NCBI GenBank assembly: GCA_021736575.1 | Contig: JAIPFP010000039.1 | Coordinates: 1-34,008 of the forward strand | Direction: 5' to 3' | DNA from: Pirellula sp. | GTDB lineage: Bacteria; Planctomycetota; Planctomycetia; Pirellulales; Pirellulaceae | DNA: 34,008 bases | Position numbers and translations under genes: made by a program | Part shown: positions 6,903-31,850 of the stretch, piece after piece | Layout of the letters: each line of letters begins with the position of its first letter | How positions within the stretch are numbered: position 1 is the stretch's first letter | Notes under the pieces: generated by a model | What the model was told of the DNA's origin: nothing | What the model saw: the letters and a program-made list of their open reading frames with translations, nothing else | Databases searched by the model: none

Positions 6903-8264
6903 ATGCGAAGAGTCTTGCAGATCATTGGGTTGTTGCTCACGCTAACGATTGTGGAGGCTTTTGCGCAACAACCTCTTTTCGCTGAAGAGCCGATCGAACT
7001 TGGCTCGCGTCGCGAGTTGTTTGTCGATCCATTCCTAATTGCACGCTTGGATAACGTTTCGCTCAAGCTTCATGAGCCCAAGCTTGCTCCACCCATGAGC
7101 GAGCCTGCTAATAATCTTGAGTACGGCACGGTTATCAAGGATGGCGACATTTATCGGCTTTATACACGCGAAGCCCGCGGTTCTAAGTTCGACGGCGATC
7201 AGTCGGAGGTGACTCGTTACTGCGAAAGCCGAGATGGCATCCATTGGACGAAGCCAATGCTTGGACTGGTCGAACTCGATGGGAGCAAAGACAACAATGT
7301 GATCCTTCACGAAGCTCCGTTCTGCCATAACTTTTCGCCTATGTTGGATGCGAGGCCCGGCGTTCCGGCGAGCGAGCGATTCAAGGCGTTGGCTGGCACA
7401 GTCAAGTCGATGCTCTACGCTTTTGTTTCGGCGGACGGGATTCACTGGCGGAAACTCAGCGACAGACCTGTGATCCAATACACGAGTGAATATGCATTTG
7501 ATTCACAGAACGTTTCCTTCTGGTCGGAAAGCGAGCAGTGCTATGTATGTTATTTCCGGCATTTTCTCGACAAGAAACTTAGATCGGTCTGTCGTACAAC
7601 CTCGAACGATTTCATAGCGTGGACCGAAGCGATCCCGATGAAACCTAATTTCGAGGGAGAGCATATCTATACGACCTTGACTCATCCTTATTTTCGCGCA
7701 CCGCATATTTACATTGCAACTCCGACTCGATTTCATCCAGGGCGAGGTGAGAGCACGGACATCCTTTTTATGACGGCTCGCCAGAATAGCCCATACGATC
7801 GAACATTCCGAGAGGCATTCATTCGGCCTGGGCTCGATCCGGAACGGTGGGGCAATCGATCGAACTATGCCGCCCTGAATGTAGTGCCAACGAGTCCAAC
7901 GGAGATGTCGATCTACACAACTCCCTTTCGACGTTTTACCCTTAGAACGGATGGTTTTGCGTCGGTTCATGCGGGTGCCGATCCTGGTACGTTTGAAACC
8001 AAGTTGTTTCGTTTTGTGGGCGATGAACTGTCCATCAATTATGCGACCAGTGCAGCAGGAAGCCTTCGTATTGAAATCCAAGATGACCAAGGGAAACCGA
8101 TTGGTGGTTTTTCCGAGAAGGAATCGATCTACATCATTGGCGACGAAATCGACCGGGTTGTTCGATGGAAAGCCGGCAGCAATGTTCGTGCCTTGGAAGG
8201 TCGCCCGATCAAATTGAGACTATCCATGATCGAATCCGATCTGTTTTCGATCCGTTTTCGATGA
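6903..8264 (+). CDS. Secreted glycosidase-like five-bladed propeller protein
   Basis: About 453 residues with an N-terminal signal peptide (MRRVLQIIGLLLTLTIVEAF, cleavage near AFA or LFA). The mature protein begins IELGSRRELFVDPFLIARL, which opens a family abundant in planctomycetes and Verrucomicrobia. Further markers are the segments TVIKDGDIYRLYTR, TRYCESRDGIHWTKP and DGSKDNNVILHE. These resemble the blades of GH43/GH32-type propellers, so a role in extracellular glycan handling is likely, but the substrate is unknown. An in-frame ATG at 6885 exists; the ATG at 6903 is preferred because AGAAGGA lies six bases upstream. The stop overlaps the start of the sialidase gene by ATGA, implying translational coupling and a shared task. 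Confidence 0.8.
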   Translation: MRRVLQIIGLLLTLTIVEAFAQQPLFAEEPIELGSRRELFVDPFLIARLDNVSLKLHEPKLAPPMSEPANNLEYGTVIKDGDIYRLYTREARGSKFDGDQSEVTRYCESRDGIHWTKPMLGLVELDGSKDNNVILHEAPFCHNFSPMLDARPGVPASERFKALAGTVKSMLYAFVSADGIHWRKLSDRPVIQYTSEYAFDSQNVSFWSESEQCYVCYFRHFLDKKLRSVCRTTSNDFIAWTEAIPMKPNFEGEHIYTTLTHPYFRAPHIYIATPTRFHPGRGESTDILFMTARQNSPYDRTFREAFIRPGLDPERWGNRSNYAALNVVPTSPTEMSIYTTPFRRFTLRTDGFASVHAGADPGTFETKLFRFVGDELSINYATSAAGSLRIEIQDDQGKPIGGFSEKESIYIIGDEIDRVVRWKAGSNVRALEGRPIKLRLSMIESDLFSIRFR

Positions 8265-9523
8265 TCATTTCAAACAAAGGACTCTCCACCTTGACTATCC
8301 TTCTCCGTCATCTGCGTTTTCGAATGATCACGACACTAGCTTCGATGTTCATCACATTGATCTCCATCGCGATTTGCCGCTTGACCTCCGCAGAGGAAAC
8401 CGAGGAGCCGAAACCAATCTATTCCGACGAATTGATCTTTCCGCTTCATCCGCAACACAATCATGCACCTGGGATCGCCGAACTTGCTAACGGTGATCTA
8501 CTTGTTTCTTGGTATCGAGGGTCGGGTGAACGCTCGGCAGATGATGTTGCCGTTTGGGGTGCCCGACAAAAAGCGGGTAGCAAGACATGGAGCGAAGCAT
8601 TCTTGATGGCGGATACGCCGGGCTTCCCGGACTGCAATACTTGCCTCATGACCGATGCCAAGGGGCGATTATGGTTGTTCTGGCCGGTCATCCTCGCGAA
8701 CTCGTGGGAGTCATGCATCACACGATTTCGCGTTTCCGAAAACCCTATTGGGATGGGTTGCCCAAAATGGAACCGGGATAGCATGATTCTTCTCAAGCCG
8801 GATAATTTCCAAGAGGAAGCATTGAAGCAACTTGAGGACCAAATCAAGGGGCTCGGAGGTGAGCTGACCGAACGAAGAGCCAAGACCGTCGAGGCCGTAA
8901 AGGCGAGGTTGGGCGAGAAGCTGTTGCAGCGACTTGGTTGGCAACCGCGCTGCAAACCGACGGTGCTACCTAGTGGACGTATCTTGTTACCGCTTTATAC
9001 CGATACTTATTCGCTGTCGATCATGGCAATCAGCGACGATGAAGGAGAAAGTTGGTTTTCAAGTAAGCCGCTCTTTGGATTCGGTGCTATTCAACCCACC
9101 GTGCTTCGGCGCGACGATGGAACGCTGGTCGCCTATATGCGAGAGAATGGTTACACAGGTTTTGTTAGGCAGAGCGAGTCGAAGGACGAGGGCCTAACTT
9201 GGGGAACGGTTGGTGTTAGCAGCATCCCAAATCCCGGCTCTGGTTTGGATGGCATTCGCTTGGCGAACGGGCATTGGATTCTCATCTGCAATGACACCAA
9301 GAACGGACGCAATCGCCTGACTTTGTTGCTTTCAGACGACCAGGGACTTTCCTGGAAAACGTCCCGATCCATCGAAGATCATGCGGAAGGTTCATATCAC
9401 TATCCAGCGATCATGCAAAGCAAAGATGGCATGATCCATGTCGTCTACAGCTATTTCGTCAAGGAAGGCAAGAGCATGAAGCACGCGAGCTTCAACGAAA
9501 ATTGGATCGGCACTTCCCGCTAG
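8261..9523 (+). CDS. Sialidase-like (BNR/Asp-box) exported glycosidase
   Basis: A 420-residue protein of the bacterial neuraminidase-repeat type, predicted to cleave terminal sialic acid or a related sugar outside the cytoplasm. Three clear Asp boxes (SxDxGxxW) are seen: SDDEGESW near residue 258, SKDEGLTW near 307 and SDDQGLSW near 358. The N-terminal HAPGIAELANGDLLVSWYRG and GLDGIRLANGHWIL segments fit the BNR_2 type of Planctomycetes. The ATG at 8261 overlaps the previous stop as ATGA. A second ATG at 8324 sits directly in front of a signal peptide (MITTLASMFITLISIAI) and may be the true start. The frame is open from 8165, but that extension lies inside the upstream gene. Substrate specificity is not readable here. 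Confidence 0.85.
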   Translation: MIISNKGLSTLTILLRHLRFRMITTLASMFITLISIAICRLTSAEETEEPKPIYSDELIFPLHPQHNHAPGIAELANGDLLVSWYRGSGERSADDVAVWGARQKAGSKTWSEAFLMADTPGFPDCNTCLMTDAKGRLWLFWPVILANSWESCITRFRVSENPIGMGCPKWNRDSMILLKPDNFQEEALKQLEDQIKGLGGELTERRAKTVEAVKARLGEKLLQRLGWQPRCKPTVLPSGRILLPLYTDTYSLSIMAISDDEGESWFSSKPLFGFGAIQPTVLRRDDGTLVAYMRENGYTGFVRQSESKDEGLTWGTVGVSSIPNPGSGLDGIRLANGHWILICNDTKNGRNRLTLLLSDDQGLSWKTSRSIEDHAEGSYHYPAIMQSKDGMIHVVYSYFVKEGKSMKHASFNENWIGTSR

Positions 9524-11342: not shown

Positions 11343-12935
11343 CTAGTGAATATGCAATTGCCGTAGCCTCGCGAGTCCATCGAGCAGTGATCGGTGCTTT
11401 CCGCTCGCCGCGATCAAACCCGCATTTGGATAGGTGTGTTCGTCTCGATCAGAATATTGGTTCCAAATGATTCCATGTACGTTGCTTTTGGCCAACAACA
11501 TCTGCACCACTTCCAAACCATTGACCGGCATTCTATCGCGACGAACCTGCGAAAAGGCTTTCTCGTGCTCTGTGACGTTTGAACCGACAGTTATGGAATC
11601 GGTCACTTCGATGGAGCCGCTGTCGGACATCTGCGACTGGTCCCAGTTGGCACAAACCGGATAAGCCCAGTTGGATACGATGCACGACTTTGCGATCGAG
11701 TTTGGATCGGCTTGCAGATTGCACGGTCCGGAGATCTGGGCGAGCAAAGGCAGCCCCAAGATATTCCAGTGGTCGATCAAATCGGATACGTCGATCAAAT
11801 CGCGAGGCATCGAGCCACCAGGCCAATAATTCAAGTTCAGCTCTAGCCCCAATCCAGACAAACCAAGATCCGCTCGAATCAACGCATCGGCAAAATGCAG
11901 TGGGCTGATTCCATCTGCTTTTTGCCCCAAGTACTCCGCCCAAGGTGAATCAATGGTTAGGACAACCGGCGTTTTCGGATCGCAACGTCGCACGGCCTGA
12001 ATCACGCCAACGGCCAAGTGCAAGACTTGTTCGTCGCTGATGCCAAGCGTGTTGGGTGCGTTTAGTCCAGCAGCCGCAGACCAAAGATGGACTTGTCCGC
12101 GATAGCGCTCAACCACTTGAACCGCATGTTTGCAGACTGCATCGTACAACGAATCAAAGTCATCAAACAAATAAAGCCATTTCGGAATTGCGTGAGCTTG
12201 TAGATTGACAAGCGGACCTGCAAAGATGCGCATTGAATTCTTGCGAGCCCAATCCAATTGTTTGTCGATAATAGCGAATGTTGCGCTTTTGGATTCGGAT
12301 TCGATCTGCCCCAACTCCATCGAAATATGAATGGTGTTGATCGCTGGCACAATTGCTTCGATATCGTTTTGCCAGTTTTTATTTGGTATGAGCTTAACAC
12401 CTAGCAGCGTGCTAAGTTGCTTTTCGGCCTGATGGCGAGCTTGCAACGACTGCGAAATGAAAGCTCTCGACAACGGTTTGGAAGCACCGATTGCAAAATC
12501 GATCGCCGACTGCGCGAATGCAACGCACCGCTCCGGTTCATCGGTGGTCAACACCGCTTGGACGAACGCAGAAACGGCTCTATCCATCAGAGAAGTGTAA
12601 GCTTCCGGAAGTTTTAGGCCAAGTCGAAGCCAATCGATCCCTCGACCACGAATGCGGTGTATGGTTCCTCGCGCAAGCTCGACATGCAGCCAATACGGAG
12701 CGTTTTGGCAACGCAGCGAAGCCGTCGAAAGCATAATCGGTCCATACTCATCCGTAGGCCAAACGATCGAGAGCTTTCCTGATTCGTCCACACTGCGATC
12801 GATGACTAAACAATCGTTTTCGAACCAATTCCGGCTCGCCCACGGAATGCCCTCGATCCCCGAAACGAAGGCTGTGCTCCAGATCTGAGAGTCGTAGCTT
12901 TGAGCATTTGGAACGCGGAATCGCAACTGACCCAT
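11343..12935 (-). CDS. GH10 xylanase-like protein lacking the usual catalytic glutamates
   Basis: A 530-residue protein. Residues 1-170 look like a beta-rich module; from about 185 a GH10-like TIM barrel follows. Barrel landmarks are FAGPLVNLQAHAIPKWL (about 238-254, equivalent to the RGHTLVWHxQxPxW strand), VHLWSAAAG (282-290, where GH10 has WDVVNE), LGLSGLGLELNLNYWPGG, GLPLLAQISG (394-403, where GH10 has PIWITELD) and VHGIIWNQYSDRDEH near the end. In both catalytic strands Glu is absent. It therefore looks like a non-hydrolytic relative or an enzyme with shifted residues. There is no signal peptide, so it would be cytosolic. The ATG at 12935 has no clear ribosome-binding site. A divergent DUF1569 gene starts 197 bases away. 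Confidence 0.75.
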   Translation of the reverse strand: MGQLRFRVPNAQSYDSQIWSTAFVSGIEGIPWASRNWFENDCLVIDRSVDESGKLSIVWPTDEYGPIMLSTASLRCQNAPYWLHVELARGTIHRIRGRGIDWLRLGLKLPEAYTSLMDRAVSAFVQAVLTTDEPERCVAFAQSAIDFAIGASKPLSRAFISQSLQARHQAEKQLSTLLGVKLIPNKNWQNDIEAIVPAINTIHISMELGQIESESKSATFAIIDKQLDWARKNSMRIFAGPLVNLQAHAIPKWLYLFDDFDSLYDAVCKHAVQVVERYRGQVHLWSAAAGLNAPNTLGISDEQVLHLAVGVIQAVRRCDPKTPVVLTIDSPWAEYLGQKADGISPLHFADALIRADLGLSGLGLELNLNYWPGGSMPRDLIDVSDLIDHWNILGLPLLAQISGPCNLQADPNSIAKSCIVSNWAYPVCANWDQSQMSDSGSIEVTDSITVGSNVTEHEKAFSQVRRDRMPVNGLEVVQMLLAKSNVHGIIWNQYSDRDEHTYPNAGLIAASGKHRSLLDGLARLRQLHIH

Positions 12936-14428: not shown

Positions 14429-15199
14429 TCAAAGGCTTGACAAGTCAACGATCAGCGAATCGCTTGCAACCACAATCTCCTTGGGCCTAGCTGTCCATAT
14501 TTTTTCATCGACTTTGGCCAATCCCAACGGGTCCGAATCCATCGCCAAAGGGTTGATGTGAGTCAAAATCAAGCGTCGAATACCAGATGCTGCGGCACTT
14601 TCCAGAACCGCAGATGTCCAACTGTGCCCTGTTTTAATAGCTAATTCGATCGACTCGTCAGAAAAGTTGCATTCATGGATCAGCCAATCGACACCTTGGA
14701 TCTCACGCCAGTACTCCGCTTGGGGGCTAGCGGTAGTATCGGTAACATAGGCAAGCGAGAGGTTCTCCCAATCCAGCCGATACCCCACGCTGCCGCCTGG
14801 ATGCTCCAATGGAAACCAGCTACATTTCGCCATTCCAAGCTCAAAACGACGGCCCAAAGCTTCGATCGGATGCCACTCGATCGGGGGCAAAATGGGAAAA
14901 AGTAATTCGTCAAAAAGGTGCTTTCGCACTGCTTCTAGCTTTACGTGTTCACCATAAACGTGGATCTTGCGAAGCGGCGTCACGGAAACATAATCAAGCA
15001 AGAATGTCAGCCCGAAAACATGGTCCATATGCGAATGGCTCAAAAGAATCGAGATTTCCTCAACCTCCAACAACTTTTCAACCCGGAATAGTCCGCTTCC
15101 AGCGTCCAACATCAAGCTATCGTCCGGAATGAAGTAACAACTCGTATGACGCGTTGCACTTGGGTGATACCCTGCCGTTCCTAAGCAGTGCAGTTTCAT
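14429..15199 (-). CDS. MBL-fold metallo-hydrolase, RNase Z-like
   Basis: A 256-residue protein of the metallo-beta-lactamase fold. The metal motif HSHMDH gives H55, H57, D59 and H60; further ligands are likely H133 (LEHPGG), D154 (YVTDTT) and H214 (LTHINPL). This order matches the RNase Z/ElaC-type branch (N-terminus MKLHCLGTAGYHPSATRHTS, as in tRNase Z relatives). The size is below that of classical RNase Z (about 300), so tRNA 3' processing is not certain; it may act on another phosphodiester or thioester. Cytosolic. The ATG at 15199 is preferred over an upstream TTG at 15208 because the motif begins there and GGAG lies eleven bases upstream. The first gene of a probable pair with the conserved hypothetical gene. 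Confidence 0.85.
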   Translation of the reverse strand: MKLHCLGTAGYHPSATRHTSCYFIPDDSLMLDAGSGLFRVEKLLEVEEISILLSHSHMDHVFGLTFLLDYVSVTPLRKIHVYGEHVKLEAVRKHLFDELLFPILPPIEWHPIEALGRRFELGMAKCSWFPLEHPGGSVGYRLDWENLSLAYVTDTTASPQAEYWREIQGVDWLIHECNFSDESIELAIKTGHSWTSAVLESAAASGIRRLILTHINPLAMDSDPLGLAKVDEKIWTARPKEIVVASDSLIVDLSSL

Positions 15200-15448
15200 G
15201 CGTGACAAGCTCCAGTTGTGCCCCTAGCGAGGCCGATCAAGTTCGAGATCGATAGTAATCCGAATATCATACCGCACAAATTCAAGTCGTGGGGCTATCG
15301 CAACACTCCGCGCTCGCCACGATTTCAATTATCATTACCAAAGGTTCTCTCTCCATTTGTCTTCTTTGGCCTGTCGACCATTTTTAATTATCGTTTACGC
15401 GGTCTGGATTGAGACGTAGCCTGACTCGCGAAATTTCGGGGATATGCA

Positions 15449-18400
15449 ATGCATTTTAGACGTATTGATGTTAGCAGCTTTTTATTCCATCTCTCAGGGG
15501 TGGCGATTGGTTTCTCGTTTTGTATGGATGCCCTTCTAGTTGCCGGATCCATGGGAGACTGGGAGTTCATGAAAGACATCCGGCCGCAAGGATACGTTTG
15601 CGGATTTTCAGCGGTGCCGCTGGTGATCGACGGCAAACTCGATGATGCTTCGTGGCAGTCCGCGCCTTGGACCCAGGATTTCGTCGATATCGAAGCCGAT
15701 CGCAAACCCAAGCCTCGCCAACGCACTCGAGCAAAAATGCTGTGGGACTCCCGATACCTGTACATTGCAGCCGAGCTTTCCGAACAACACATCCAAGGGA
15801 GTATCGTCAAGCATGACGCGGTGATCTTCCAAGACAACGACTTCGAGGTTTTTATCGACCCAGACGGAGACAATCACGCCTACTACGAATTCGAAATGAA
15901 TGCCCTTAATACCACATGGGACCTATTTCTCCCTCGACCCTACAAAGATGCAGGCACCGCCGATAATAGCTGGGAGTTTGAGGGGCTCAAGTCCGCAGTC
16001 CATCTGCAAGGCACCCTCAACAATCCGTCCGATATCGACACCGGATGGACGCTCGAAATCGCTATCCCATGGGCTTCATTCGGCAAACACGCGAACAAGG
16101 CATGTCCGCCGAACGACGACGATCGGTGGCGCATCGATTTTTCACGCGTGGAATGGCAGTTCGATATCGTCGATGGCCAATACCGCAAGGTGCCCAACAC
16201 AAAAGAAGACAATTGGGTCTGGTCGCCTCAAGGGATCATCGACATGCACCGACCCGAACGATGGGGCTTCGTTCAGTTTTCAAGTGCCCCCGCAGGCTCA
16301 CAAACGTTTGCACATGACGAAAGTTTGCCGATCCGCGATACCTTGATGGAGATCTACCATCGTCAACGCGCATTCCAAGCGAAAAATGGCAAGTGGGCAA
16401 GCAATCCGCAAGAGCTCGAACTGGGGCAAACTCAGTTGCCTCAGTCTGCCAAGTTGTCGATGCAACTTACGGACGCCGGATACCAGGCAACCATCGAAAC
16501 CTCTGCCAATGGCAAAGCACTCGAACGCTGGCACGTTCAGCAGGACTCGCGACTATGGGAAACTCCCAGTAACCCACGCGTGCAAGCGGCGCTCGACCGA
16601 GCAGGACCAAACCGATCGCAATTGGAAAGAGCTCTTGAACAAGCCACGAGCGAGCACACCGAAGCCATCGAGTTCTTGATCGCCAATATGCCGGAGCGCG
16701 ACCTTCAAAGCCTGTCCGCCGACTTTCTGCTTGAAAACACTCGGTTGGCATACGAAGCATGGAACACTTCAGCCTGGAAGGATAAAATCAGTCGGGAAAT
16801 ATTCTTGAACAATGTGTTGCCCTATGCCAACATCAACGAGAGCCGCGACGAATGGCGCAAGGACTTCCGACAACGATTCTTGCCATTGATTGCCGGCGCC
16901 AAATCGCCCTCTCAAGCAGCGGCCATGCTCAACCAAAAACTGTTCCCTCTGGTCAATGTCCGCTACTCGACCAAGCGTGCCAAAGCAGACCAAAGCCCCG
17001 TGGAATCGATTAAGTCCGGGCTTGCATCTTGCACAGGTCTTTCGATCCTGCTGATCGATGCTTGTCGAGCCTGTGGAATTCCTGCGCGATTCGTGGGAAC
17101 TCCGCTCTGGTCCGACAACAGCGGCAATCACTCATGGGTTGAAGTGTGGGATGACGGCTGGCATTTCACGGGTGCCGCAGAACCCAATGGAGATGAATTA
17201 GACAAAGCATGGTTCATTGGGCGAGCGTCGACCGCCGTTCGCGACAACGCGCTCAACGCAATCTACGCAGTGAGTTTTCAACAGACACCGCAAGCGTTTC
17301 CGTTGGTATGGGACCGTTCCATCGACTACATCCGAGCCGTCAACGTAACCGATCGATACACCAATCTAGGATTCAAACCGCCCGAAGGATCGACGCTCAC
17401 TATGTTTCGCGTTGCGGATGAAGCGAGCCAGCAACGAATCGCTGCGGAGGTCAATGTGCTCGACGCAAATGGGTTGTCCGTCTTCAAAGGGACTTCGAAA
17501 GACGAACGCTTTGATGCCAATGATCATTTGCTGACTTACTTGCCAAGCGGTCAAGAGTTTACGATCGAAATTCGTGACGGACAACGCGTTATCAACGAGA
17601 AATTCCGGAGCGAACCACGCGATAGACCAATCAACTTTACGTTTATTCCTCCTGTTCCACAGGCCAATCAGCCCAAGCCTGCCCCAAGGGCCAATCAGCC
17701 CAAGAGAGAGTCGAACGACGTTTCTTCATCGAATGCAATCGACGGATTGGCTAAGTATCTTGCGGTTGCGTGGGATCAACGTCCTGCAATGGGCGACCAA
17801 GCCTTTGCAAAAGTTCCGCTGACGAAACTCGAAGCGACCGAGGCCATGAAATTGTTATGGGAGGATCATGTCAAGCATCTTCGAGACACTCGCACGGCAG
17901 AGATGGAGGCTCGCGAAATTGTGATTGGCTCGCTTAAGATGCCATTCGCTTACCAAATATTTGGCGAAAAACCGGCCTCAGGAAGGAGCTTGGTTTTATC
18001 GATGCATGGCGGCGGCGGGGCTCCTCCAAGAGTGAATACGCAGCAATGGGAAAACCAAAAGAAGCTATATCAGTTGGAGGAAGGAGTCTACGTGGCTCCG
18101 CGGGCGCCAACCGACACATGGGATCTTTGGCATCAAGGGCACATCGGCGGTTTCTTTGATCGACTTATCGAGAACTTCATCGTATTCGAAGGCGTTGATC
18201 CGAACCGTGTGTACCTCATGGGATATTCGGCAGGCGGTGACGGCGTCTTTCAATTGGCTCCAAGAATGGCCGATCGATTTGCGGCTGCTTCGATGATGGC
18301 GGGTCATCCCAACGAGACGTCCCCGCTTGGACTGCGCAACTTGCCCTTTACCATTCACATGGGGGAAAACGATGCAGCCTACAATCGCAATAAAATCGCA

Positions 18401-18910
18401 GCTACCTGGGCCGAGAAACTCGCAGAACTTCAGCGAAACGATTCGAACGGTTATCCGCATCTCGTCAAGATCCATGCGGGCAAGGGGCACTGGATGGATC
18501 GTCAAGATGCGGAGGCACTCCCGTGGATGGCCAAATACACCCGCGACCCTTTTCCAAAGCGAATCGTTTGGAAACAGGACGACGTCGTCGAGAATCGTTT
18601 CTATTGGATGGCGGTCGATCAAAAGGACATTCGTGATCGGGCGCAAGTCATTGCGAATCGCGATGGACAGAACATTGACATCGTTTCCAAAGACGTCGAT
18701 CAAATCCGAATACGGTTGAATGACAGTATGATTGACTTCGGCCAAAGCGTTCGAATTACATCTAGCAACGCGGTCCTATTCGAAGGCAAAGTCGATCGAA
18801 CGATCGAAGTCATCGCCAAGTCGTTAGCCGAGCGAGGCGATCCAAAGTCCGTATTTCAAGCCGAGGTCAATGTCAGCCTTACAAGTGTTAGCGTTGAGTC
18901 GGGCAAGTAG
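15449..18910 (+). CDS. CBM9-like + transglutaminase-like + alpha/beta hydrolase fusion, exported
   Basis: A 1153-residue protein with three recognisable modules. After a signal-like N-terminus (1-33), a CBM9-like sugar-binding module runs about 48-277 (VIDGKLDDASWQSAPWT, LWDSRYLYIAAELSEQ, DNDFEVFIDPDGD). A transglutaminase/protease-like core runs about 430-640, with Cys528 in SCTGLSILLIDACRACGIPAR, His561 in NHSWVEVWDDGW and the family segment GAAEPNGDELDKAWF. A Pro/Gln linker containing two ANQPK repeats follows. The C-terminal alpha/beta hydrolase has an oxyanion motif HGGGG (853-857), nucleophile Ser927 in GYSAGGDG, probable Asp975 and His1014. It probably binds and modifies extracellular polysaccharide or a peptide-glycan conjugate; this is inference. 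The ATG at 15449 has GGGGAT upstream. Confidence 0.85.
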   Translation: MHFRRIDVSSFLFHLSGVAIGFSFCMDALLVAGSMGDWEFMKDIRPQGYVCGFSAVPLVIDGKLDDASWQSAPWTQDFVDIEADRKPKPRQRTRAKMLWDSRYLYIAAELSEQHIQGSIVKHDAVIFQDNDFEVFIDPDGDNHAYYEFEMNALNTTWDLFLPRPYKDAGTADNSWEFEGLKSAVHLQGTLNNPSDIDTGWTLEIAIPWASFGKHANKACPPNDDDRWRIDFSRVEWQFDIVDGQYRKVPNTKEDNWVWSPQGIIDMHRPERWGFVQFSSAPAGSQTFAHDESLPIRDTLMEIYHRQRAFQAKNGKWASNPQELELGQTQLPQSAKLSMQLTDAGYQATIETSANGKALERWHVQQDSRLWETPSNPRVQAALDRAGPNRSQLERALEQATSEHTEAIEFLIANMPERDLQSLSADFLLENTRLAYEAWNTSAWKDKISREIFLNNVLPYANINESRDEWRKDFRQRFLPLIAGAKSPSQAAAMLNQKLFPLVNVRYSTKRAKADQSPVESIKSGLASCTGLSILLIDACRACGIPARFVGTPLWSDNSGNHSWVEVWDDGWHFTGAAEPNGDELDKAWFIGRASTAVRDNALNAIYAVSFQQTPQAFPLVWDRSIDYIRAVNVTDRYTNLGFKPPEGSTLTMFRVADEASQQRIAAEVNVLDANGLSVFKGTSKDERFDANDHLLTYLPSGQEFTIEIRDGQRVINEKFRSEPRDRPINFTFIPPVPQANQPKPAPRANQPKRESNDVSSSNAIDGLAKYLAVAWDQRPAMGDQAFAKVPLTKLEATEAMKLLWEDHVKHLRDTRTAEMEAREIVIGSLKMPFAYQIFGEKPASGRSLVLSMHGGGGAPPRVNTQQWENQKKLYQLEEGVYVAPRAPTDTWDLWHQGHIGGFFDRLIENFIVFEGVDPNRVYLMGYSAGGDGVFQLAPRMADRFAAASMMAGHPNETSPLGLRNLPFTIHMGENDAAYNRNKIAATWAEKLAELQRNDSNGYPHLVKIHAGKGHWMDRQDAEALPWMAKYTRDPFPKRIVWKQDDVVENRFYWMAVDQKDIRDRAQVIANRDGQNIDIVSKDVDQIRIRLNDSMIDFGQSVRITSSNAVLFEGKVDRTIEVIAKSLAERGDPKSVFQAEVNVSLTSVSVESGK
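17662..17704. repeat. 16-bp direct repeat in the interdomain linker
   Basis: GGCCAATCAGCCCAAG occurs at 17662-17677 and again at 17689-17704, separated by 11 bases. It encodes the repeated ANQPK segments of the linker between the transglutaminase-like and hydrolase modules of the fusion protein. Confidence 0.9.
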
Positions 18911-18956: not shown

Positions 18957-19022
18957 CCACAAAAAGTTTGATAGTTCGATTCAACAGATCAGCCGGTTTA
19001 TGGCTATTGTGAGTTTTTGTGG
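18957..19022. repeat. CCACAAAAA / TTTTTGTGG inverted repeat
   Basis: CCACAAAAA (18957-18965) and TTTTTGTGG (19014-19022) are exact reverse complements 48 bases apart. They lie between the fusion gene and the sarcosine-oxidase gene. Flanking words (CACTAAAAGGCACAAAGT) are AT-rich. It could serve as a weak terminator for the upstream gene or be part of another dispersed repeat. Confidence 0.6.
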
Positions 19023-19132
19023 TTAGGAAAAATGGTAAGGTGCGAGAGAGCTGATAATGCATTGCGTCGACTTGGGATTTCTCCAACATTTGATGCGTTC
19101 CATTTGCAGCGTGGTTGGGTAGATTATTTGCG

Positions 19133-20302
19133 ATGAGATACTACGATGCGGTTGTGATTGGCTTGGGGGGGATGGGTAGTGCGGCTACCTCTCATTTGGC
19201 GACGCGCGGAGTGAAAACCCTGGGGCTCGAACAATTCGATCCCTTGCATACTCGCGGGTCAAGCCACGGAGAATCGCGGGTTATTCGTCAGTCCTATTTC
19301 GAACATCCGAACTACGTACCCTTGCTTCTTCGAGCGTATGAACTTTGGACTCAATTGCAATCCGAATCCGGACTGGATTTGATGACGATCACCGGAGGAC
19401 TCATGATTGGGCGTCCCGACAGTCAAACGATTGTCGGCAGTCAACGGAGCGCCTTGCAGCATCATCTTCGGCACGAAATGCTCACGGCCAAACAAATACA
19501 GGAACGCTTTCCGGTTTTGACACCAACATCAGAACTGGTTGGGTTGTATGAGCAGAATGCTGGTTTTGTTCGACCGGAACGATGCATCGAAGCGCACCTT
19601 GCGAGGGCCGAAGCGGCGGGCGCGGATCTGCATTTTGGAGAGCGATTGATCGATTGGACGCCTTCCTCGAAGAATTCGACAGTCTTGGTGCGAACGACGC
19701 GAGATACGTATGAGACCGGCTCCTTGGTTCTTGCCCCCGGAGCCTGGGCACCGAAGCTATTTAAACTGGACGTTTCACTGCAAGCCGTCAGGCAGATTTT
19801 GTTTTGGATCGAGCCACTTTGTGACCCTGAGGCTTTTGCGCCAGAGCGATTTCCGATTTACATTTGGGAATGCGATGGAGGGGTTCAGTTTTATGGATTC
19901 CCGCAGCACGGGCCAGCCAACGCCGGGATTAAGGTCGCTGTCTTCTATAATGACGATCCGTGCGACCCCGATAACGTAAACCCATTGATAGGAGACGAAT
20001 TCGTACAGCAAATACGATCCTGTTTGCAGAGGCGTATCCCTTGTTTATCGGGGCGAATCGTCAAAGCAATTCCGTGCATGTATACCAATACTCCAGACCA
20101 TCACTTTGTGCTTGGGAAGCATCCGCGATTCCCGATGGTCACGATTGCGTCCCCCTGTTCAGGGCATGGATTCAAATTTTGCAGCGTGATTGGAGAGATC
20201 CTAGCGGATCTTGCAACGACAGGTTCGACGCGTCACGGCATCGATATGTTTTCGCCCACGAGAGAAACGTTAACGACGCCTCGCAGTGGGCTAAGCTACT
20301 AG
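19133..20302 (+). CDS. Monomeric sarcosine oxidase / N-methyl-L-amino-acid oxidase homologue
   Basis: A 389-residue flavoenzyme predicted to oxidise N-methyl amino acids such as sarcosine, giving formaldehyde, glycine and hydrogen peroxide. The N-terminal FAD-binding motif reads VVIGLGGMGSAA (Gly10, 12, 13, 15), and the region RGSSHGESRVIRQSYFEHPNYVPL is typical of MSOX and SolA. The covalent flavin attachment Cys is at position 315 (CMYTNTPDHHFVLG), the same number as in Bacillus MSOX when translation starts at 19133. This agreement supports the ATG at 19133 over the in-frame TTG at 19115. The length also matches the family. Cytosolic. Convergent with the operon ending at 20317; substrate choice within the MSOX/MTOX/PIPOX group cannot be read from this sequence. 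Confidence 0.9.
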   Translation: MRYYDAVVIGLGGMGSAATSHLATRGVKTLGLEQFDPLHTRGSSHGESRVIRQSYFEHPNYVPLLLRAYELWTQLQSESGLDLMTITGGLMIGRPDSQTIVGSQRSALQHHLRHEMLTAKQIQERFPVLTPTSELVGLYEQNAGFVRPERCIEAHLARAEAAGADLHFGERLIDWTPSSKNSTVLVRTTRDTYETGSLVLAPGAWAPKLFKLDVSLQAVRQILFWIEPLCDPEAFAPERFPIYIWECDGGVQFYGFPQHGPANAGIKVAVFYNDDPCDPDNVNPLIGDEFVQQIRSCLQRRIPCLSGRIVKAIPCMYTNTPDHHFVLGKHPRFPMVTIASPCSGHGFKFCSVIGEILADLATTGSTRHGIDMFSPTRETLTTPRSGLSY

Positions 20303-20329
20303 TTACAGGCGACTAGTTACAGGCGACTA
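20298..20329. repeat. 14-bp tandem duplication spanning two stop codons
   Basis: ACTAGTTACAGGCG (20298-20311) is repeated directly at 20312-20325, followed by a partial third copy ACTA. It contains the stop codon of the oxidase gene in copy one and the stop codon of the giant membrane protein in copy two. Both gene ends remain readable. Confidence 0.9.
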
Positions 20330-23300
20330 CCCATCGCTTTGAAGTACGCTTTGATGGCTTCGACGAACTCGGGGTCGTATTCGTCGCGACGCCCCTCTAT
20401 GGTATCTTCCGCCCGCTGCTCTCGTAGATTTCCCCAGTCGCGGCTCGGCTCTCTTGAACGCCCAGGCAACACAAAAGCACCCGGCTCTTGGCCCGCCATT
20501 CCGCGACCTTGCTTGTTTGCTTGGGATTGGGATTGGCCTTGGTTTTGGCTCGACTCCTTGCGTGAGCTATTACGTGTTTGGTTATTTGCCGAACGCTGAT
20601 TCAGCCGATCCTGATTCATGGTACCAGAAAGGTTGTCGGCAGAATTGCGAACCGAATCCTGAAACGAACTTCGGGATCCATTTCGATCGCCCTGTTCTTC
20701 GGCCGACGCTCGCGGTTGCCCTTCGCTCTTGGACGAATTCTCTCCTTGTGCGGATTTCCCATTCGAGCTTGGATCCGCGTTTGTCGAGCGATCCAACTCA
20801 TCCAACATTCTTGCTAACTCACGAGCTGCCGTTTGCTTCTCGTCTCGCTCTTGCTTTGACCCTTTGCTTTGCGAACCTTGATTCGGTCGACTGGAATCTG
20901 CATTGGGATTAGGAATTTCAGTCCCTCGTTGAGACGACTCTGTCGAACCGATCGCTTGATCCAACTGACGGGCCAGATTCGTTAACTCTTGACTTGCTTG
21001 AGTGACGGTATCTTGCAATCCCTGCGTCGCAGGGCGACGAAACGGTTCTTGTATCTCGCTGTCTTGGTTCGCCGTGGCTTGGTCTGCTTCTGAGCGAATT
21101 GCATCGGCGGCAGCGGCATCAAGTTTATCCGCAACTTGCTGAAGCGATTCATTGCTGGTCTTGCCAACCTGCGCCGAAGTTTCGGCAAGAACCTTTGCAC
21201 CGCTGGTATTCCCAAGTCGCTCTTCGTGCCTTGCGCTTCTTGCAAGTTCTTGAGCGGCATCCCCGACCTTTTCCTGAATGCCTTTGTGTTGATTTTTTTC
21301 AGCCGACAACGCAGCCGAAGTACTCCTCGGCTCGGAGAGCGACTTCGTCTCTGGAATGAGTGACGATACTTGCAATTGAAGCTCATCGACTTGTTCCCGG
21401 GCTTTTTCCAATTGCTCGGCTGCTAACGCAGCAATTGGGTTAGGCTTATCGACATCCTTGCGCACCGATTCATCAAACTTGCTTGCACGTAATTTAGCTT
21501 GCTCTGCCAAGCTTTCTGCTTGTCTAACTTCGCTTTGAGCGGTTTGTGCACGGGCAACAAGCTGTTCTTCTTGGATGGATGCGTTCCGAAGGCGTTCTTT
21601 GGACGCATCGTTATCGGGTGCCTTTTCGAGAGCCCGTTTGGCCTCTTGGGTTTGACGCCTGGCGTTCTTCAATGGAGTAGCAAGTTGTTCGGCACGTTTC
21701 TTTGCTTGTTCAAAACGTTGCAATGATTCTTTCGAAGTGTCGCGGGCTTGTTTATTCATTTCCTCGCGAATTTGATTTTGCAGGTTTCGCATTTCGTTGC
21801 GGTTGGCCTGCCGCGTTTGCTCATCTTTTGCTGTGCGAATTTCAATCTTGGGCTCGATCGCCTGGCTGGTTACTTGAATCTGTCGCTGAGCTTGTGCAAG
21901 TTTTTCCGAAAGCGGTTGCAATGACTGTTCGAATTCGAGACGAGTCGATTGCTCGTTCAACCGCTTTACTGAGTTTGCCGCGATCCCTAGTTCTCGCGAA
22001 GATTGCTCCAAAGCGATAGCTTCCGCGTTGCTGCCAGAGCGACTCGCAATAGTCGAAGCCTTTGTAAGAAGTCTGGCAGCAAATCGTTCGGCTTGCTCGC
22101 TGACGGAACGCAGTTTCTCTATTTGCAATCGCTTTTCGCCGGCCAACACCAAATCCGAGTTCTCATTTTGAATGGCCATCGAAAGCTCGTCTTTGGCTGC
22201 GTTTCGTAATTCGAGGGCTACCGCTTGGGCGTTGGCCTTCGAGATTTCCGAGAGTTCGTCCTGCATCAAAGGGTTGGTTTTTAATTCTTGCTCAAGCTTT
22301 TGAAGCAAGTCCAACGGATCGCTTTTGGCCAAGCTCGCCAATTCCTCCGCTCGTTCGTAGTCTTCGGTAGTGTCGCGCAGCGGAATTGCGTCTGGTGGCA
22401 GTGAAGGTTCGTTTGCCGCTTCCGTCGCCAGCATGGATAAATCTTCACGAGATTGAGCGAGCTCTTTTTCGCGGGCGCTGTCGGTATTTTGCGACTGTTG
22501 TTCCAACATCGCGAAATGGTTTGCGACTTTAGTGATGGCGTCGATAGTCGCGGACTCGCGTTGAATGGCCTCGCTTACTTTTTTTGCGAGTTCTAGTTGC
22601 CCCTGCTCTGGTGCACTTTGTTGGTCCTTTGGCCTGGGGTCCGCCATGGCATTCATGGCTTCCAGCGCAGTTGCAATCGAATCTCGCATTGGGGCCGAGA
22701 CAGATTCGATCAGATTCAATGCGGCATCGCTGTCGCGGGCTAAATCCCGCTCAAAGTCTTTCAGTAGGTCTTGTTTGTTGGCCAATTCGATGAGCGCATC
22801 TTGTAGCTGAGAAGTAGTTCTCTCTGCGGCCTGTTGCTGCGTTTGTATTTGGGAAGGCGAAGGCAACTCGGTCACTTGTTTCAATTGCCGCGTCGCGTCT
22901 GCTGCCTTGAGTGCAAGCTGCGAGACGGAGAGTGCATATTTGGCCAGTACCACTCTGGCGGCATCAAGGGTTGGTTTGGCTTGGCTATCGGCGACTGCCC
23001 AGAGCTCTAACATTTCCCTGATATCCTCCGAGGCCGAAAAAACATTCGTATTGTTTGCATCTCGACGTACGCTTAACTTTTGTGAAATACGTTGAGCAGC
23101 TACACACCACCGTAACGCGTTAAACTTTTCGGTTACCGGACCGGGGAACCCCGCTTGCTGCATCCACTGGTGAGCCAATTCGATACGAAGATTCACGCTG
23201 TCCCATTGCTTGGGGTGGACTAGTTGGCCGTCCAATGTTTTCCACTCGTATTGCTCTCGTGGACGAAGGGCTTGGACAGCCAATCTCGCTTCGACGGTTT

Positions 23301-26247
23301 CGTGAGCTGCTTCTAGAATTCGATATGCCTTTGCAATCTCTCTCAATTCTTTGATGATTTCGGCAGCATTCGTTGGTTCGCTCAAGCATCGTTCAAGGTG
23401 GTTGGTCAACGCGCGATGGGCCATTCCCATGTCGATGGGGAACAGTGGGTCGGCAACCGTTCTCAGTTGATGAATGTCGCGTCGATCCAGCATTTGAGCG
23501 AGTGCCGAAATCAAGGGACCTGTCGTTTCTGAGTCCAGTTTATTGACGCGGGACAAAAGTTCATCCGTCGCAAGACTCTTATCTGCGGTGGCCTCGAGAC
23601 GTTGATTAAGCTTTTGCAATAAATCCTCAAAGCTGGTCCAAAGCGATCCACTTTGATTTAGCAATTCCTTGCGGCTGTCGATGGTCACCCAAATAAGGTT
23701 TTCGCCAAGGTTGAATCCCCATCGCATTCCCTTGAGCTCATTCGCACTGCGTTCGATACGTTGCTTTAACTGATTGACAGACTGTGCGCTTTCGTCTGCT
23801 TGAGCGATATCGCGAATTTCCAGACGAGTCTGATCGATCCAACGGTAGAGGTTGCTTAAACCCTCTTTGACTTTTGGACTAACGTTGCTCTCCATGTCGC
23901 TTGCCAACTTGACAACGGAATCCATGGTCTGCTCCGAAATTGTGTTCGAACGAGTCAGTGTTGCAAAATCGGAAACCGTCGCTCGATTCAAACTATTCTT
24001 CTGGTGTTCCATCAATGCCGTGAGGTCTCTAGTGAGCGCGGACTGAAGCTCAAGACCAATAAATTGGCAATAGATTTCAAGCAATCGCTTGGAATGTTCA
24101 CATGTCCGGTCGTACGATTGAAGCATTCGATCGATTTTCCGCACGCGATCGCTTTGATGCCACGGAGCCAATTCGGAAGAAGCGCTTTGAGACGTCGAAA
24201 GCTCCTGAACGTCTGCGAAGTGCTGGATATACTTGAGAAATTCTCGTTCCATTCTTGAAACAGTGCGGACGGTCAGTTCGAGCTCGTTTTGATCGATGCA
24301 ATGCGTCAGGTCGACCATGATTTCTTTGGCAAGCGAACGGATCGCTTGTGCCTTTTCGATTCCTTCGTCCGCCATAACGCGAATTTCTTTCAGCGATGCT
24401 CCCCGTTGACTCTCGGGTACGTTTGCCTCTCGTAACTTGTCGATAAGTGGTCGGATTTGCTCACGCTTGGAACTCATATGTTCCGCAAATGCTCGAATGG
24501 GCGCAACCAATTGAGCCCTCCGAACCAAACTGGCATGCCGGTTTCGGTCGTAACCCGCAGTGGCTATACTGAACTGAACGATGGGCGAATGCGAAACATT
24601 TCCTTTGCGATCGACCACAGTGATTCGCGACGCAACGATATCGCCACTGCTAGCTGGCGAGTCTAACAAATCCCACGCCCATACCGCGTTCGCTTCGACC
24701 AAGTGTTTTGGCTTGGGGTTCGCATCGGAGGTAGGAATAGACGCAGTCTGGTCCACGACCATCAACTCGATCTTTGCTTTCGTTGTCTGCCAATCACCTC
24801 GATTGATGGAAATCTCATTCGAAATTTGTTCGATTGGGAGATTGTCGCTGACGTTCGCGGCGAGTTTGAGAATCTCGTTGGGTGCAACGATGAACGTTGC
24901 CCCCGTATTTGGCGGTGATTTCCAGTAGGTTTCTTCGTTGGCAGCCCAAGCAACCAAAGCACCTGCATCCTCGATGGCTTCAATCCGATACGTAGGGCTG
25001 AAGCTATTTTCGACGTTGATTCCATCGAATTCGAAATTAGAAACCAAGCGCACTTGATAGCGCGCGTTTTCGGTTACGTCGAACTCTGCGGCGTAGCGAG
25101 CCGCGGCGCCCGTACCAAGCGGGAGAGATTCGCTTGGCTTGAGGTTTGACAAAGCCAATGTTTCTTTGCGACCGGACGCCGTGTACTCCAATAAAATCAG
25201 GGCTTTGGCAAGCGTTAAATTGGTATCGATGGCCAAGTGTACTCGACTGCCACTGAGAAGTTGCAAGTCTCCCCGCACATTCGATGTCAGGGTGGAATCT
25301 TGCTTGGTGTATGCTGGGGGTGTGACAGTGGCGTGAAACGCCAACGACTTTGGCCGAGGAACTGGCGTGAGCGTGCGGAAAAGCGTTTGTCCATCACCCG
25401 CAAGCACACGATACCGAGTGATTCTATCGCTAATGGGTACGGACAGCGAGAATCGTAGTGGGTTATTGCTTTCCAACATCATTTTGAGCGTGCGATTGTT
25501 ACCTGGCGATGGAGCACCGTCCTCGACCAATTCCAACGAGGCTTCGCTAGGAACTCCTCCCGTCACGTCAACAACGAACCGCAATGACTGATCCGTCGGC
25601 ACGGACATCGAAGCTGGGCTTGGCTCTAGTACGTCGATTTGAATATTAGATGGCCTGACGAGCGAAACGAATGGAATCATGGCTCTGGCCAATCGTTCCG
25701 AAAATCGAAGGTTCGGAACGTAACTTGCTATTACAAGAACTGCTGCGACTGCAATTGCTGCAGCGGCACTTTGAGCGATTTTCCTCCAAGGCAGCAAACT
25801 CTCGACGTTCAACGTATCCAACTCGCGCGCAACACCTTGTTCGATCGCGGCAATAAACTCTAACGAACCGCGTCGCTGTGAGCCACCATCTCGCCTCAAG
25901 TCAATCGTTGTGAGCAGACTCTCACGGAAATTAGGGTGCGTGTTTTCGAGTGACCAAGCGATATTCTCTTGCGACGGTTGATACCAAAGTCCCTTAAGAC
26001 CAAATGTCCATCCTACGAACAGGGCCAAGACGTAGGAAACACAGATCAATCCCCAACGCCATCCATCGACCAACCAGTGCGTCGCATCAAGCATTGCGAT
26101 AGCGATCGAACAAAGAAACAAGCAGACGAAGGCGTTGAAAAACCCACGAATGATCTGCAAACGCATTTGTCGATCTGCGAATTGTTGCAAGAACGAACCG
26201 ACAGTCTCGCGAGACGAACGCAACGTTTCGGGTAAAGTTCCACTCAT
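20317..26247 (-). CDS. Giant membrane-anchored coiled-coil protein (DUF4175-like)
   Basis: A 1976-residue protein and the last gene of the MoxR operon. Three hydrophobic segments at about 36-57, 64-84 and 157-178 anchor the N-terminus. Positive charges around residues 85-156 suggest this loop is cytosolic, placing residues 180-1976 outside the cytoplasmic membrane. Residues about 190-600 look beta-rich, with repeated domain-like units (IQIDVLEPSPASMSVPTD onward). About 600-1680 is helical and rich in Ala, Gln, Glu and Arg, including long coiled coils. About 1690-1920 is a Ser/Asn/Gln-rich low-complexity tract, and the end (RREQRAEDT-type segment EGRRDEYDPEFVEAIKAYF) is again ordered. The overall resemblance is to the DUF4175 proteins found with MoxR/vWA genes. 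It overlaps the upstream vWA gene by ATGA. The detailed role is unknown. Confidence 0.85.
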   Translation of the reverse strand: MSGTLPETLRSSRETVGSFLQQFADRQMRLQIIRGFFNAFVCLFLCSIAIAMLDATHWLVDGWRWGLICVSYVLALFVGWTFGLKGLWYQPSQENIAWSLENTHPNFRESLLTTIDLRRDGGSQRRGSLEFIAAIEQGVARELDTLNVESLLPWRKIAQSAAAAIAVAAVLVIASYVPNLRFSERLARAMIPFVSLVRPSNIQIDVLEPSPASMSVPTDQSLRFVVDVTGGVPSEASLELVEDGAPSPGNNRTLKMMLESNNPLRFSLSVPISDRITRYRVLAGDGQTLFRTLTPVPRPKSLAFHATVTPPAYTKQDSTLTSNVRGDLQLLSGSRVHLAIDTNLTLAKALILLEYTASGRKETLALSNLKPSESLPLGTGAAARYAAEFDVTENARYQVRLVSNFEFDGINVENSFSPTYRIEAIEDAGALVAWAANEETYWKSPPNTGATFIVAPNEILKLAANVSDNLPIEQISNEISINRGDWQTTKAKIELMVVDQTASIPTSDANPKPKHLVEANAVWAWDLLDSPASSGDIVASRITVVDRKGNVSHSPIVQFSIATAGYDRNRHASLVRRAQLVAPIRAFAEHMSSKREQIRPLIDKLREANVPESQRGASLKEIRVMADEGIEKAQAIRSLAKEIMVDLTHCIDQNELELTVRTVSRMEREFLKYIQHFADVQELSTSQSASSELAPWHQSDRVRKIDRMLQSYDRTCEHSKRLLEIYCQFIGLELQSALTRDLTALMEHQKNSLNRATVSDFATLTRSNTISEQTMDSVVKLASDMESNVSPKVKEGLSNLYRWIDQTRLEIRDIAQADESAQSVNQLKQRIERSANELKGMRWGFNLGENLIWVTIDSRKELLNQSGSLWTSFEDLLQKLNQRLEATADKSLATDELLSRVNKLDSETTGPLISALAQMLDRRDIHQLRTVADPLFPIDMGMAHRALTNHLERCLSEPTNAAEIIKELREIAKAYRILEAAHETVEARLAVQALRPREQYEWKTLDGQLVHPKQWDSVNLRIELAHQWMQQAGFPGPVTEKFNALRWCVAAQRISQKLSVRRDANNTNVFSASEDIREMLELWAVADSQAKPTLDAARVVLAKYALSVSQLALKAADATRQLKQVTELPSPSQIQTQQQAAERTTSQLQDALIELANKQDLLKDFERDLARDSDAALNLIESVSAPMRDSIATALEAMNAMADPRPKDQQSAPEQGQLELAKKVSEAIQRESATIDAITKVANHFAMLEQQSQNTDSAREKELAQSREDLSMLATEAANEPSLPPDAIPLRDTTEDYERAEELASLAKSDPLDLLQKLEQELKTNPLMQDELSEISKANAQAVALELRNAAKDELSMAIQNENSDLVLAGEKRLQIEKLRSVSEQAERFAARLLTKASTIASRSGSNAEAIALEQSSRELGIAANSVKRLNEQSTRLEFEQSLQPLSEKLAQAQRQIQVTSQAIEPKIEIRTAKDEQTRQANRNEMRNLQNQIREEMNKQARDTSKESLQRFEQAKKRAEQLATPLKNARRQTQEAKRALEKAPDNDASKERLRNASIQEEQLVARAQTAQSEVRQAESLAEQAKLRASKFDESVRKDVDKPNPIAALAAEQLEKAREQVDELQLQVSSLIPETKSLSEPRSTSAALSAEKNQHKGIQEKVGDAAQELARSARHEERLGNTSGAKVLAETSAQVGKTSNESLQQVADKLDAAAADAIRSEADQATANQDSEIQEPFRRPATQGLQDTVTQASQELTNLARQLDQAIGSTESSQRGTEIPNPNADSSRPNQGSQSKGSKQERDEKQTAARELARMLDELDRSTNADPSSNGKSAQGENSSKSEGQPRASAEEQGDRNGSRSSFQDSVRNSADNLSGTMNQDRLNQRSANNQTRNSSRKESSQNQGQSQSQANKQGRGMAGQEPGAFVLPGRSREPSRDWGNLREQRAEDTIEGRRDEYDPEFVEAIKAYFKAMGSRL

Positions 26248-30931: not shown

Positions 30932-31836
30932 TTGCCACTCCTTCGCTTTGCAAGGTAATTCGATAATACCGTGCTATGCGATTCGGAAGTGCGAACAGGA
31001 ATCAGATCGATTCGACTCTGCGCACAGCCTCGTTCTAGCTCGCCTTGATACCGCTGCATGTTTTCAACATAAACTTTACGAAGCTGAATCGGGTCGACGA
31101 GAATTTGATTGGATGCCAATTCCAGTGAACGGAACATGGTTCTGGATTGAAATGGAAAGTCAACTTCATCATCGTCTAAAATCTGAAAGACGATGACCTC
31201 CTGATAATTATTGCGCAAAAGTGTTAGCGACTTTGCAATGGCCTCGGCATCGCCAAAGCAATCGGAGATTAGAATCACCAGCCCTCGGCGTTTGCAGTAC
31301 TGAAGCAAACCGCGCAGGACGATACTAAGATCAGTCTCGCTGCTTGGAACCGAATCGGTCATGGCTTGAAAAAGTGCCTGCAGATGATTCGGGCGACTGC
31401 GGGGTGGTATATAGTTTCGAATCGTGGAATCGAAGGTTGCAAGGCCAACCGCATCTTGTTGGTTGATCAACAAATACGCGAGCGAGGCGGCCAATCGAAC
31501 TCCAAACCCATGTTTGGTGAGCCCTTGCGAGCGCGAACCTGAATACCGCATTGAGCCACTCTGATCAAGCACCAGCGTGCATCTCAAATTCGTTTCGTCC
31601 TCATATTGGCGAATGTAGAGTCGGTCCGTCTTGCCGTAGAGCTTCCAATCGATGTTTCGTGTTTCATCGCCTGGGACGTAGGGCCGGTGCTCTTTGAATT
31701 GAACGCTCGCCCCGATGTGATGCGAACGATGCATGCCTCCGCTGAGCCCTTCCACAACACCTTTGGCGTACAACTGCAAGCCAGTTACGCGCGACAGATC
31801 TTGAGGCGACAACCAACGCAAGAAAGGTAGTTTCAC
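30928..31836 (-). CDS. DUF58 family vWA-like protein
   Basis: 302 residues and soluble. The DUF58 signature FKEHRPYVPGDETRNIDWK (about 48-66) is intact, followed by a vWA-like fold with the MIDAS motif DQSGS (Asp91, Ser93, Ser95) and strands RGLVILISDCFGD and QEVIVFQILDDDE. DUF58 proteins almost always accompany MoxR ATPases and are thought to link the ATPase to its substrate. Unlike many family members, it lacks an N-terminal membrane pair, so it should be cytosolic. It starts 14 bases after the MoxR stop and overlaps the BatA-like gene by ATGA. Confidence 0.95.
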   Translation of the reverse strand: MKLPFLRWLSPQDLSRVTGLQLYAKGVVEGLSGGMHRSHHIGASVQFKEHRPYVPGDETRNIDWKLYGKTDRLYIRQYEDETNLRCTLVLDQSGSMRYSGSRSQGLTKHGFGVRLAASLAYLLINQQDAVGLATFDSTIRNYIPPRSRPNHLQALFQAMTDSVPSSETDLSIVLRGLLQYCKRRGLVILISDCFGDAEAIAKSLTLLRNNYQEVIVFQILDDDEVDFPFQSRTMFRSLELASNQILVDPIQLRKVYVENMQRYQGELERGCAQSRIDLIPVRTSESHSTVLSNYLAKRRSGK

Positions 31837-31850
31837 TGTTGCTCCGCGAA

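Follow-up and report, generated by a model that had tools for sequence, protein, structure and literature searches.

The window analysed here is a 34,008-nucleotide stretch (positions 1 to 34,008) of the Pirellula sp. contig JAIPFP010000039.1 (assembly GCA_021736575.1). One of its genes (15449..18910, + strand) carries three modules in a single open reading frame (ORF), in the order carbohydrate-binding module family 9-like (CBM9), transglutaminase-like (TG) and alpha/beta hydrolase (HYD). We propose, at about even odds (a probability near 0.5), that its product is an exported, glycan-targeted two-enzyme protein that would cleave two kinds of bond, amide-type and ester, in a single substrate. 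The TG and HYD modules would act in concert, because most TG loci among the relatives have them fused or next to each other.

Three modules in one reading frame

The ORF is intact, with 1153 residues plus a stop codon, an ATG start and no internal stops. It is the sole full-length match in its own genome, where two further sites match parts of it, one the CBM9 region (E 6.5e-30) and one the hydrolase region (E 7.9e-6). Residues 1-33 (15449..15547, +) form an N-terminal hydrophobic segment, which is a probable export signal according to hydropathy and a predicted helix (residues 8-32). The CBM9-like beta-sandwich behind it (residues 44-281; 15578..16291, +) is identified by Pfam, by profile matches and by fold. 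Pfam CBM9_1 (PF06452) covers residues 60-216 with E 6.7e-14 and 52.6 bits, above the cut-off of 23.4, and a profile search with the module matches the CBM9 structures 7nwn (1.8e-5) and 1i82 (1.6e-4). The fold agrees with 4jpq (Z 18.7) and 7nwn (Z 18.2) in a region where the predicted local distance difference test score (pLDDT) is partly below 50 (residues 115-127 and 167-170). CBM9 modules sandwich a sugar between two aromatic (Trp) residues; F127 is invariant and stands at the place expected for one of the two in the profile alignment with 7nwn and 1i82, and the second aromatic was not placed. The extension at residues 282-378 (16292..16582, +) is common to the stand-alone CBM9 relatives and is mostly modelled at low confidence (block pLDDT 48-70 for residues 291-370). 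It also bears a faint, non-significant likeness to the type IV pilin 8tj2 (E 0.13). An alignment of CBM9 with this extension (A4, 18 sequences) has a mean column identity of 61% and 77 invariant columns, including three His and one Met. The module shares with CBM family 9 (7nwn, 1i82, 4jpq) the beta-sandwich fold and the N-terminal part of the sequence profile, but differs in its conserved extension of about 97 residues and in having stand-alone forms of exported type.

The TG module consists of a helical N-terminal part and a core (residues 379-600; 16583..17248, +). Pfam Transglut_core (PF01841) matches residues 481-571 with E 6e-16 and 59.1 bits against a cut-off of 23. Modelled separately with AlphaFold2, the module reaches a pLDDT of 90.6 and a predicted template modelling score (pTM) of 0.81, and its fold matches TG2 (6a8p; Z 11.8, root-mean-square deviation 3.5, 184 aligned residues) and 3isr (Z 9.6). 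A search of PDB sequences with the TG profile gave nothing beyond 3isr at E 0.38, so membership rests on Pfam and fold. Cys528 (17030..17032, +), the predicted nucleophile, sits at the N-terminus of a helix in the model and aligns with the Cys of 3isr in that same E 0.38 match. His561 (17129..17131, +) opens the next strand. Glu578 (17180..17182, +), 17 residues past His561 and just behind the following strand, is the predicted third residue of the triad and was absent from the initial annotation. A second beta-sandwich, Ig-like or CnaB-like, stands behind the core (residues 647-733; 17387..17647, +). Its best-scoring match covering this sandwich only is 3e8v (Z 9.9), a possible TG-family fragment from Bacteroides fragilis, and the CnaB2 domain 8bdw also matches (Z 8.8).

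The flexible linker at residues 737-759 (17657..17725, +; block pLDDT 33 and 44 across residues 741-760) leads into the hydrolase (residues 760-1037; 17726..18559, +), which is supported by fold, phmmer and profile and contains an oxyanion-type motif, HGGGG, at residues 853-857. The closest fold is the C-terminal esterase domain of LC-Est1 (3wyd; Z 22.0, root-mean-square deviation 2.1, 179 aligned residues, residues 832-1033), also matched in sequence by phmmer (5.2e-6) and by profile (1.9e-7); 3doh (Z 20.8) and acetyl-xylan and feruloyl esterases (Z 18-20) come next. The predicted nucleophile Ser927 (GYSAGG; 18227..18229, +) lies between strand 916-926 and helix 928-939 and aligns with GHSMGG of 3wyd, and Asp975 (18371..18373, +) aligns with an Asp of the same structure. 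Together with His1014 (18488..18490, +), they mark the module as an alpha/beta hydrolase fold with a predicted Ser-Asp-His triad, as judged from the model and from conservation. The C-terminal beta domain (residues 1038-1145; 18560..18883, +) is mostly strands with block pLDDT 91-97, and is conserved together with the hydrolase in alignment A3. Fold, Ser-Asp-His order and the GxSxGG elbow are shared with LC-Est1 and with the feruloyl and acetyl-xylan esterases; the studied module differs from these in sequence (identity of 20% or less in the listed fold matches), in the HGGGG loop and in its own conserved C-terminal beta domain.

Cys528, His561, Ser927, Asp975 and His1014 lie where the initial annotation had put them. 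Conservation was counted in alignment A1, whose 64 rows were selected from the loci that had been fetched (some loci, chiefly near-copies and partial ones, were omitted), and recounted over all ORFs that match a profile strongly, with near-copies counted in. Among A1 rows covering each position, His561 and Glu578 are found in 47/47, Ser927, Asp975 and His1014 in 51/51, and Cys528 in 48/48, one of which is a stray placement in the hydrolase-only row L051. In the recount, Cys-His-Glu is intact in 86/86 TG ORFs and Ser-Asp-His in 80/80 HYD ORFs. Classical transglutaminases use Asp as the third catalytic residue. This Asp is replaced by Glu in all 86 close ORFs, and Glu also stands there in 10 of 11 distant TG relatives with other architectures whose sequence spans the column (L101 is the exception). 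Since the protein has Glu578 instead of Asp and belongs to a wider Glu-bearing branch, we assign it to the PF01841 superfamily on profile and fold and do not count it as a classical transglutaminase. It shares with that superfamily the core fold, the Cys at a helix start and the His on the next strand, and differs in the Glu, the extra helical N-terminal part and the Ig-like domain behind. From the sequences, the family looks like a Cys-His-Glu branch and, with Glu in place of Asp, like an uncharacterised subfamily.

The initial annotation had described a sugar-binding module, a Cys/His transglutaminase-like core and a Ser hydrolase joined in one exported polypeptide. Its first two modules are borne out by a Pfam domain search, both above curated cut-offs and with agreeing folds, the hydrolase by its match to 3wyd and its invariant triad, and the Cys528/His561 centre by its conservation in every TG ORF. 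The single polypeptide is likewise plain from the ORF, and export stands as probable on account of the N-terminal segment. Export among relatives was judged by hydropathy and a motif check rather than by signal-peptide prediction, with rows of fewer than 20 residues ahead of the first domain omitted; the relatives examined have a hydrophobic stretch there (best 13-residue mean of at least 1.5), and a few a lipobox-like motif.

The TG-HYD partnership among relatives

A genome-contig scan with short peptide patterns of all three modules yielded 134 relatives, the best 79 of which were labelled with profiles of the TG, HYD and CBM9 modules. TG-HYD is the label of 37 of the 79 loci, and 14 have the CBM-TG-HYD order of the studied gene. 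CBM stands alone in nine loci and HYD in seven (L075 of these is cut by a contig end). The remaining labels are CBM-TG (two loci, L017 and L032), TG-CBM (two, L055 and L056), TG-HYD with CBM next door (three), TG and HYD as neighbouring genes (two), and one locus each of neighbouring single genes for TG, HYD and CBM, of TG-HYD-CBM (L019) and of TG-HYD with a second HYD. Contig ends cut the ORFs of L112, L117, L032, L014, L047, L059, L075 and L078, so that labels of absent partners may be wrong there. HYD lies in the TG ORF (56) or adjoins it (3) in 59 of the 63 TG loci; the four without it are L017, the cut L032, and L055 and L056, which come from a single assembly and have identical TG modules. 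CBM9 is in or adjoins 23 of the 63, and in L018, L019, L053, L055 and L056 it is of a more distant kind, with 32-39% identity to that of the studied gene. L061 and L095 encode TG, HYD and CBM9 in separate genes that adjoin one another, each with an export-type N-terminal segment; those of L095, from the studied genome's own family, are consecutive. The TG-CBM order also occurs in L121.

The architecture search thus answers the initial annotation with the same module order in 14 other loci, and the fusion is not unique to the studied genome. Going by their record titles, all 14 are planctomycete, mostly Pirellula, Rubripirellula and Planctomycetaceae with a single Schlesneria and a single Kuenenia. 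Titles of records that carry TG-HYD genes include Planctomycetota, Verrucomicrobia and Fimbriimonadia, and the stand-alone CBM9 copies lie in seven acidobacterial and two planctomycete loci.

The closest relatives of the gene, L004 and L005, are homologous to it across residues 1-1153, with best-segment identities of 95% and 89%. The ratio of nonsynonymous to synonymous substitution rates (dN/dS) over the whole ORF is 0.159 to L004 and 0.129 to L005; the gene is therefore maintained as a single functional protein. The lowest values belong to TG (0.079 and 0.039) and CBM9 (0.098 and 0.057), with HYD at 0.161 and 0.133. Values are higher in the linker (1.24 and 0.38, from just 23 and 15 codons; identity 83% and 60%), in the signal segment (0.59 and 0.41, from few codons) and in the CBM9 extension (0.48 to L005, a short part with few codons). 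An assembly chimera or a decayed pseudo-enzyme was also considered and is rejected with very little doubt, given the three-part ORF in 14 of the 79 loci from separate records, six intact catalytic residues and purifying selection; no evidence favouring chimera or decay was found in these data.

A TG tree built quickly from 86 rows, with near-copies present and two long rows (L120 and L121) joined, requires 19 changes for the nine architecture labels against a shuffled mean of 31.6, where 19 is an upper estimate inflated by rows cut at contig ends. Well-supported branches alone force at least two changes involving CBM-TG-HYD, at least five for TG-HYD and at least two for the three-gene arrangement. 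L025 has the same order as the studied gene with a hydrolase of another subtype (31% identity) and lies far from the other fusions, where the tree is poorly resolved. Assembly of the fusions seems to have happened more than once. Partners that are repeatedly joined to each other and split apart are classically taken to be functionally linked.

We also drew 149 genomes evenly from the phylum, the studied one included. At the first cut-offs, TG is matched in 32 genomes (E 1e-20), HYD in 36 (1e-30) and CBM in 25 (1e-20). Strict cuts of 1e-80 for TG and CBM and 1e-140 for HYD were set after inspection of the match lists. Close TG modules then remain in 23 genomes, and HYD is fused to them in 16 and adjacent in one (L095), giving 17/23; of the other six, contig ends truncate two (L112 and L117), L121 is TG-CBM, and TG stands by itself in three. 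From the other side, 13 of 15 HYD matches lie with a TG (the exceptions are G059 and G112), whereas just three of ten CBM matches do. TG and HYD therefore form the core partnership, with CBM9 as a looser third partner.

Proposed mechanism and competing readings

In the mechanism that we propose, the CBM9-like module would anchor the protein to carbohydrate, and Cys528-His561-Glu578 of TG would form a thioester with a substrate carbonyl, a reaction most likely ending in hydrolysis, as in a peptidase or amidase. The hydrolase, whose Ser927-His1014-Asp975 triad is predicted from conservation and fold, would use its HGGGG loop in cleaving an ester in the same substrate. TG and HYD would work together while the CBM9 partner is gained or lost more freely, and the substrate may be a composite in which amide links occur together with ester links, for example a glycopeptide or a polysaccharide that is acylated or cross-linked through esters. 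The initial annotation had suggested coupled processing of a complex substrate, and this idea is backed by the recurrence of these modules as fused or adjacent genes; coupling on one substrate is supported on that basis and is probably real.

Several observations weigh against the proposal. The CBM9-like domain stands alone in nine of the 79 loci and HYD in seven; close TG stands alone on an uncut ORF in three of the 23 genomes (L094, L096 and L116), and the three-in-ten figure for CBM points the same way. The hydrolase clears no curated family cut-off, remaining below those of dienelactone hydrolase in Pfam (PF01738; 20.5 against 21 bits) and of the polyhydroxybutyrate (PHB) depolymerase-type esterases in NCBIfam (NF050058, 41.2 against 150 bits; TIGR01840, 30.7 against 107.85 bits). 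The full model has a mean pLDDT of 84.6 and a pTM of 0.45, so the relative arrangement of its domains is not reliable. In the distant TG relatives no HYD was found in the same ORF. Proteins with a TG-like fold may also be cross-linking enzymes, acyl transferases or inactive, and the substrate is one that we infer. The neighbourhood was scanned over 46 same-strand close neighbours, 42 after four near-copies were dropped (L010, L108 twice and L045), with ORFs called by our own composition score instead of a gene caller. No constant neighbour outside the trio emerged among the 42, so the substrate cannot be read from genomic context; among the 55 families, the 25 most frequent include a Na/Ca exchanger, the commonest (4/42), a sulfatase (3/42) and GH76 (2/42).

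The cross-linking enzymes TG2, TG3 and factor XIII head the VIA-align rows of the TG module, as would be expected if TG were a cross-linking or acyl-transfer enzyme (a true transglutaminase or an amide ligase) serving construction of the cell surface, with the hydrolase trimming or supplying acyl groups. These rows, however, have Z of at most 11.8 and 12-19% identity, a shared fold is no proof of function, and the first Foldseek match of the module is 3isr, a bacterial putative cysteine protease. The few loci with sulfatases (3/42 neighbours) or glycosidases beside TG-HYD fit degradation slightly better, an argument tempered by the commonness of sulfatases in this phylum. We consider such a surface-building role unlikely. 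The ligand of the CBM9-like module might instead be a component of the cell surface or something other than a sugar, not free sugar ends, and the protein would then be a housekeeping envelope enzyme. The constraint on CBM9 close to that of the TG core (dN/dS 0.057 and 0.039 to L005), the high conservation of its A4 columns and its stand-alone copies all fit this idea, but its closest solved relatives by profile, 7nwn and 1i82, are sugar-binding CBM9s, and we regard it as possible though doubtful.

Breakdown of a polyester, a polyamide or a similar storage or secreted polymer, with a PHB-depolymerase-like esterase and the CBM as a mere adhesion module, would account for the sub-threshold NCBIfam matches of HYD to polyhydroxyalkanoate and PHB depolymerase-type esterases and for the PHB and poly(aspartate) hydrolases among its fold matches (Z 18-19). 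Feruloyl, acetyl-xylan and general esterases match the fold equally well or better, with rows within one Z unit tied, and polymer breakdown of this kind seems improbable. Returning to the two-enzyme glycan reading, a stronger form of it would have a long-lived unit of Cys-His-Glu TG-fold amidase and serine esterase, often recruited by CBM9, dismantle a bacterial or algal glycan-peptide conjugate that no known enzyme system handles; this we offer tentatively and consider rather unlikely. Fusion and adjacency predict, for planctomycetes and their relatives, a TG-fold enzyme and an esterase cooperating on one extracellular substrate, and identifying that substrate would extend the set of activities known in these bacteria for complex polymers.

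The initial annotation knew of no characterised protein with this architecture, and a literature search agreed: among the open-licence PubMed Central papers listed (15 of 75 and 10 of 24 for two of the searches), judged by title and abstract start and without UniProt or InterPro annotations, we found no description of it. The known domain kinds here form a recurrent combination for which we found no description. Ruminococcus flavefaciens has exported cellulosomal TG-like proteins with dockerins (PMC2930009), which, as far as the available passages go, share with the studied protein an exported TG-like domain in a carbohydrate-degrading context but differ in carrying dockerins, with CBM9 and an esterase not found in those passages. 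The multimodular fused carbohydrate esterases of Bacteroidetes (PMC7110780, by its title) likewise join two activities in one protein; theirs, however, are two esterases, and the count of the word transglutaminase for that paper is zero. The main text of a planctomycete survey of carbohydrate-active enzymes (PMC11131199) mentions CBM9 once and transglutaminase not at all.

Distant relatives and genomic surroundings

Distant TG relatives (L087-L093, for example L088:945-4088, - strand) are proteins of about 900-1200 residues with a second TG-like copy, and the only second copy read, that of L087, is without the Cys. Pfam applied to four of these proteins gives AhpC/TSA in L087, L088 and L090, not in L089, with tetratricopeptide repeats in two of those three. 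The TG branch therefore has other partners too. Upstream of the L087 gene, an ORF has a weak HYD-like match (E 3.8e-6). In contig G012:C12, a distant HYD match (15250-16224, E 3.5e-48) and a distant TG match (18970-19608, E 1.4e-21) are separated by about 2.7 kb, a hint that the TG-HYD partnership extends past the close family.

In the window, the gene is preceded by a metallo-beta-lactamase-fold gene (14429-15208, -) and followed by an FAD oxidoreductase gene (19115-20302, +). Further off are a gene row of MoxR ATPase, DUF58, BatA/VWA and VWA (26244-32930, -) and, following that row, a 1976-residue ORF (20317-26247) without a Pfam match. Also near the gene are an ORF with a weak, sub-cut-off likeness to glycosyl hydrolase family 10 (11343-12935) and a BNR repeat protein of sialidase type (8165-9523). 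Around the acidobacterial stand-alone CBM9 copies, eight ORFs were scanned; seven have no Pfam match and one encodes an outer membrane efflux protein. In one TG-HYD clade (L035, L036, L038, L040 and L067), the same-strand ORFs immediately upstream fall into a single cluster, and all three that were scanned singly match the Na/Ca exchanger family.

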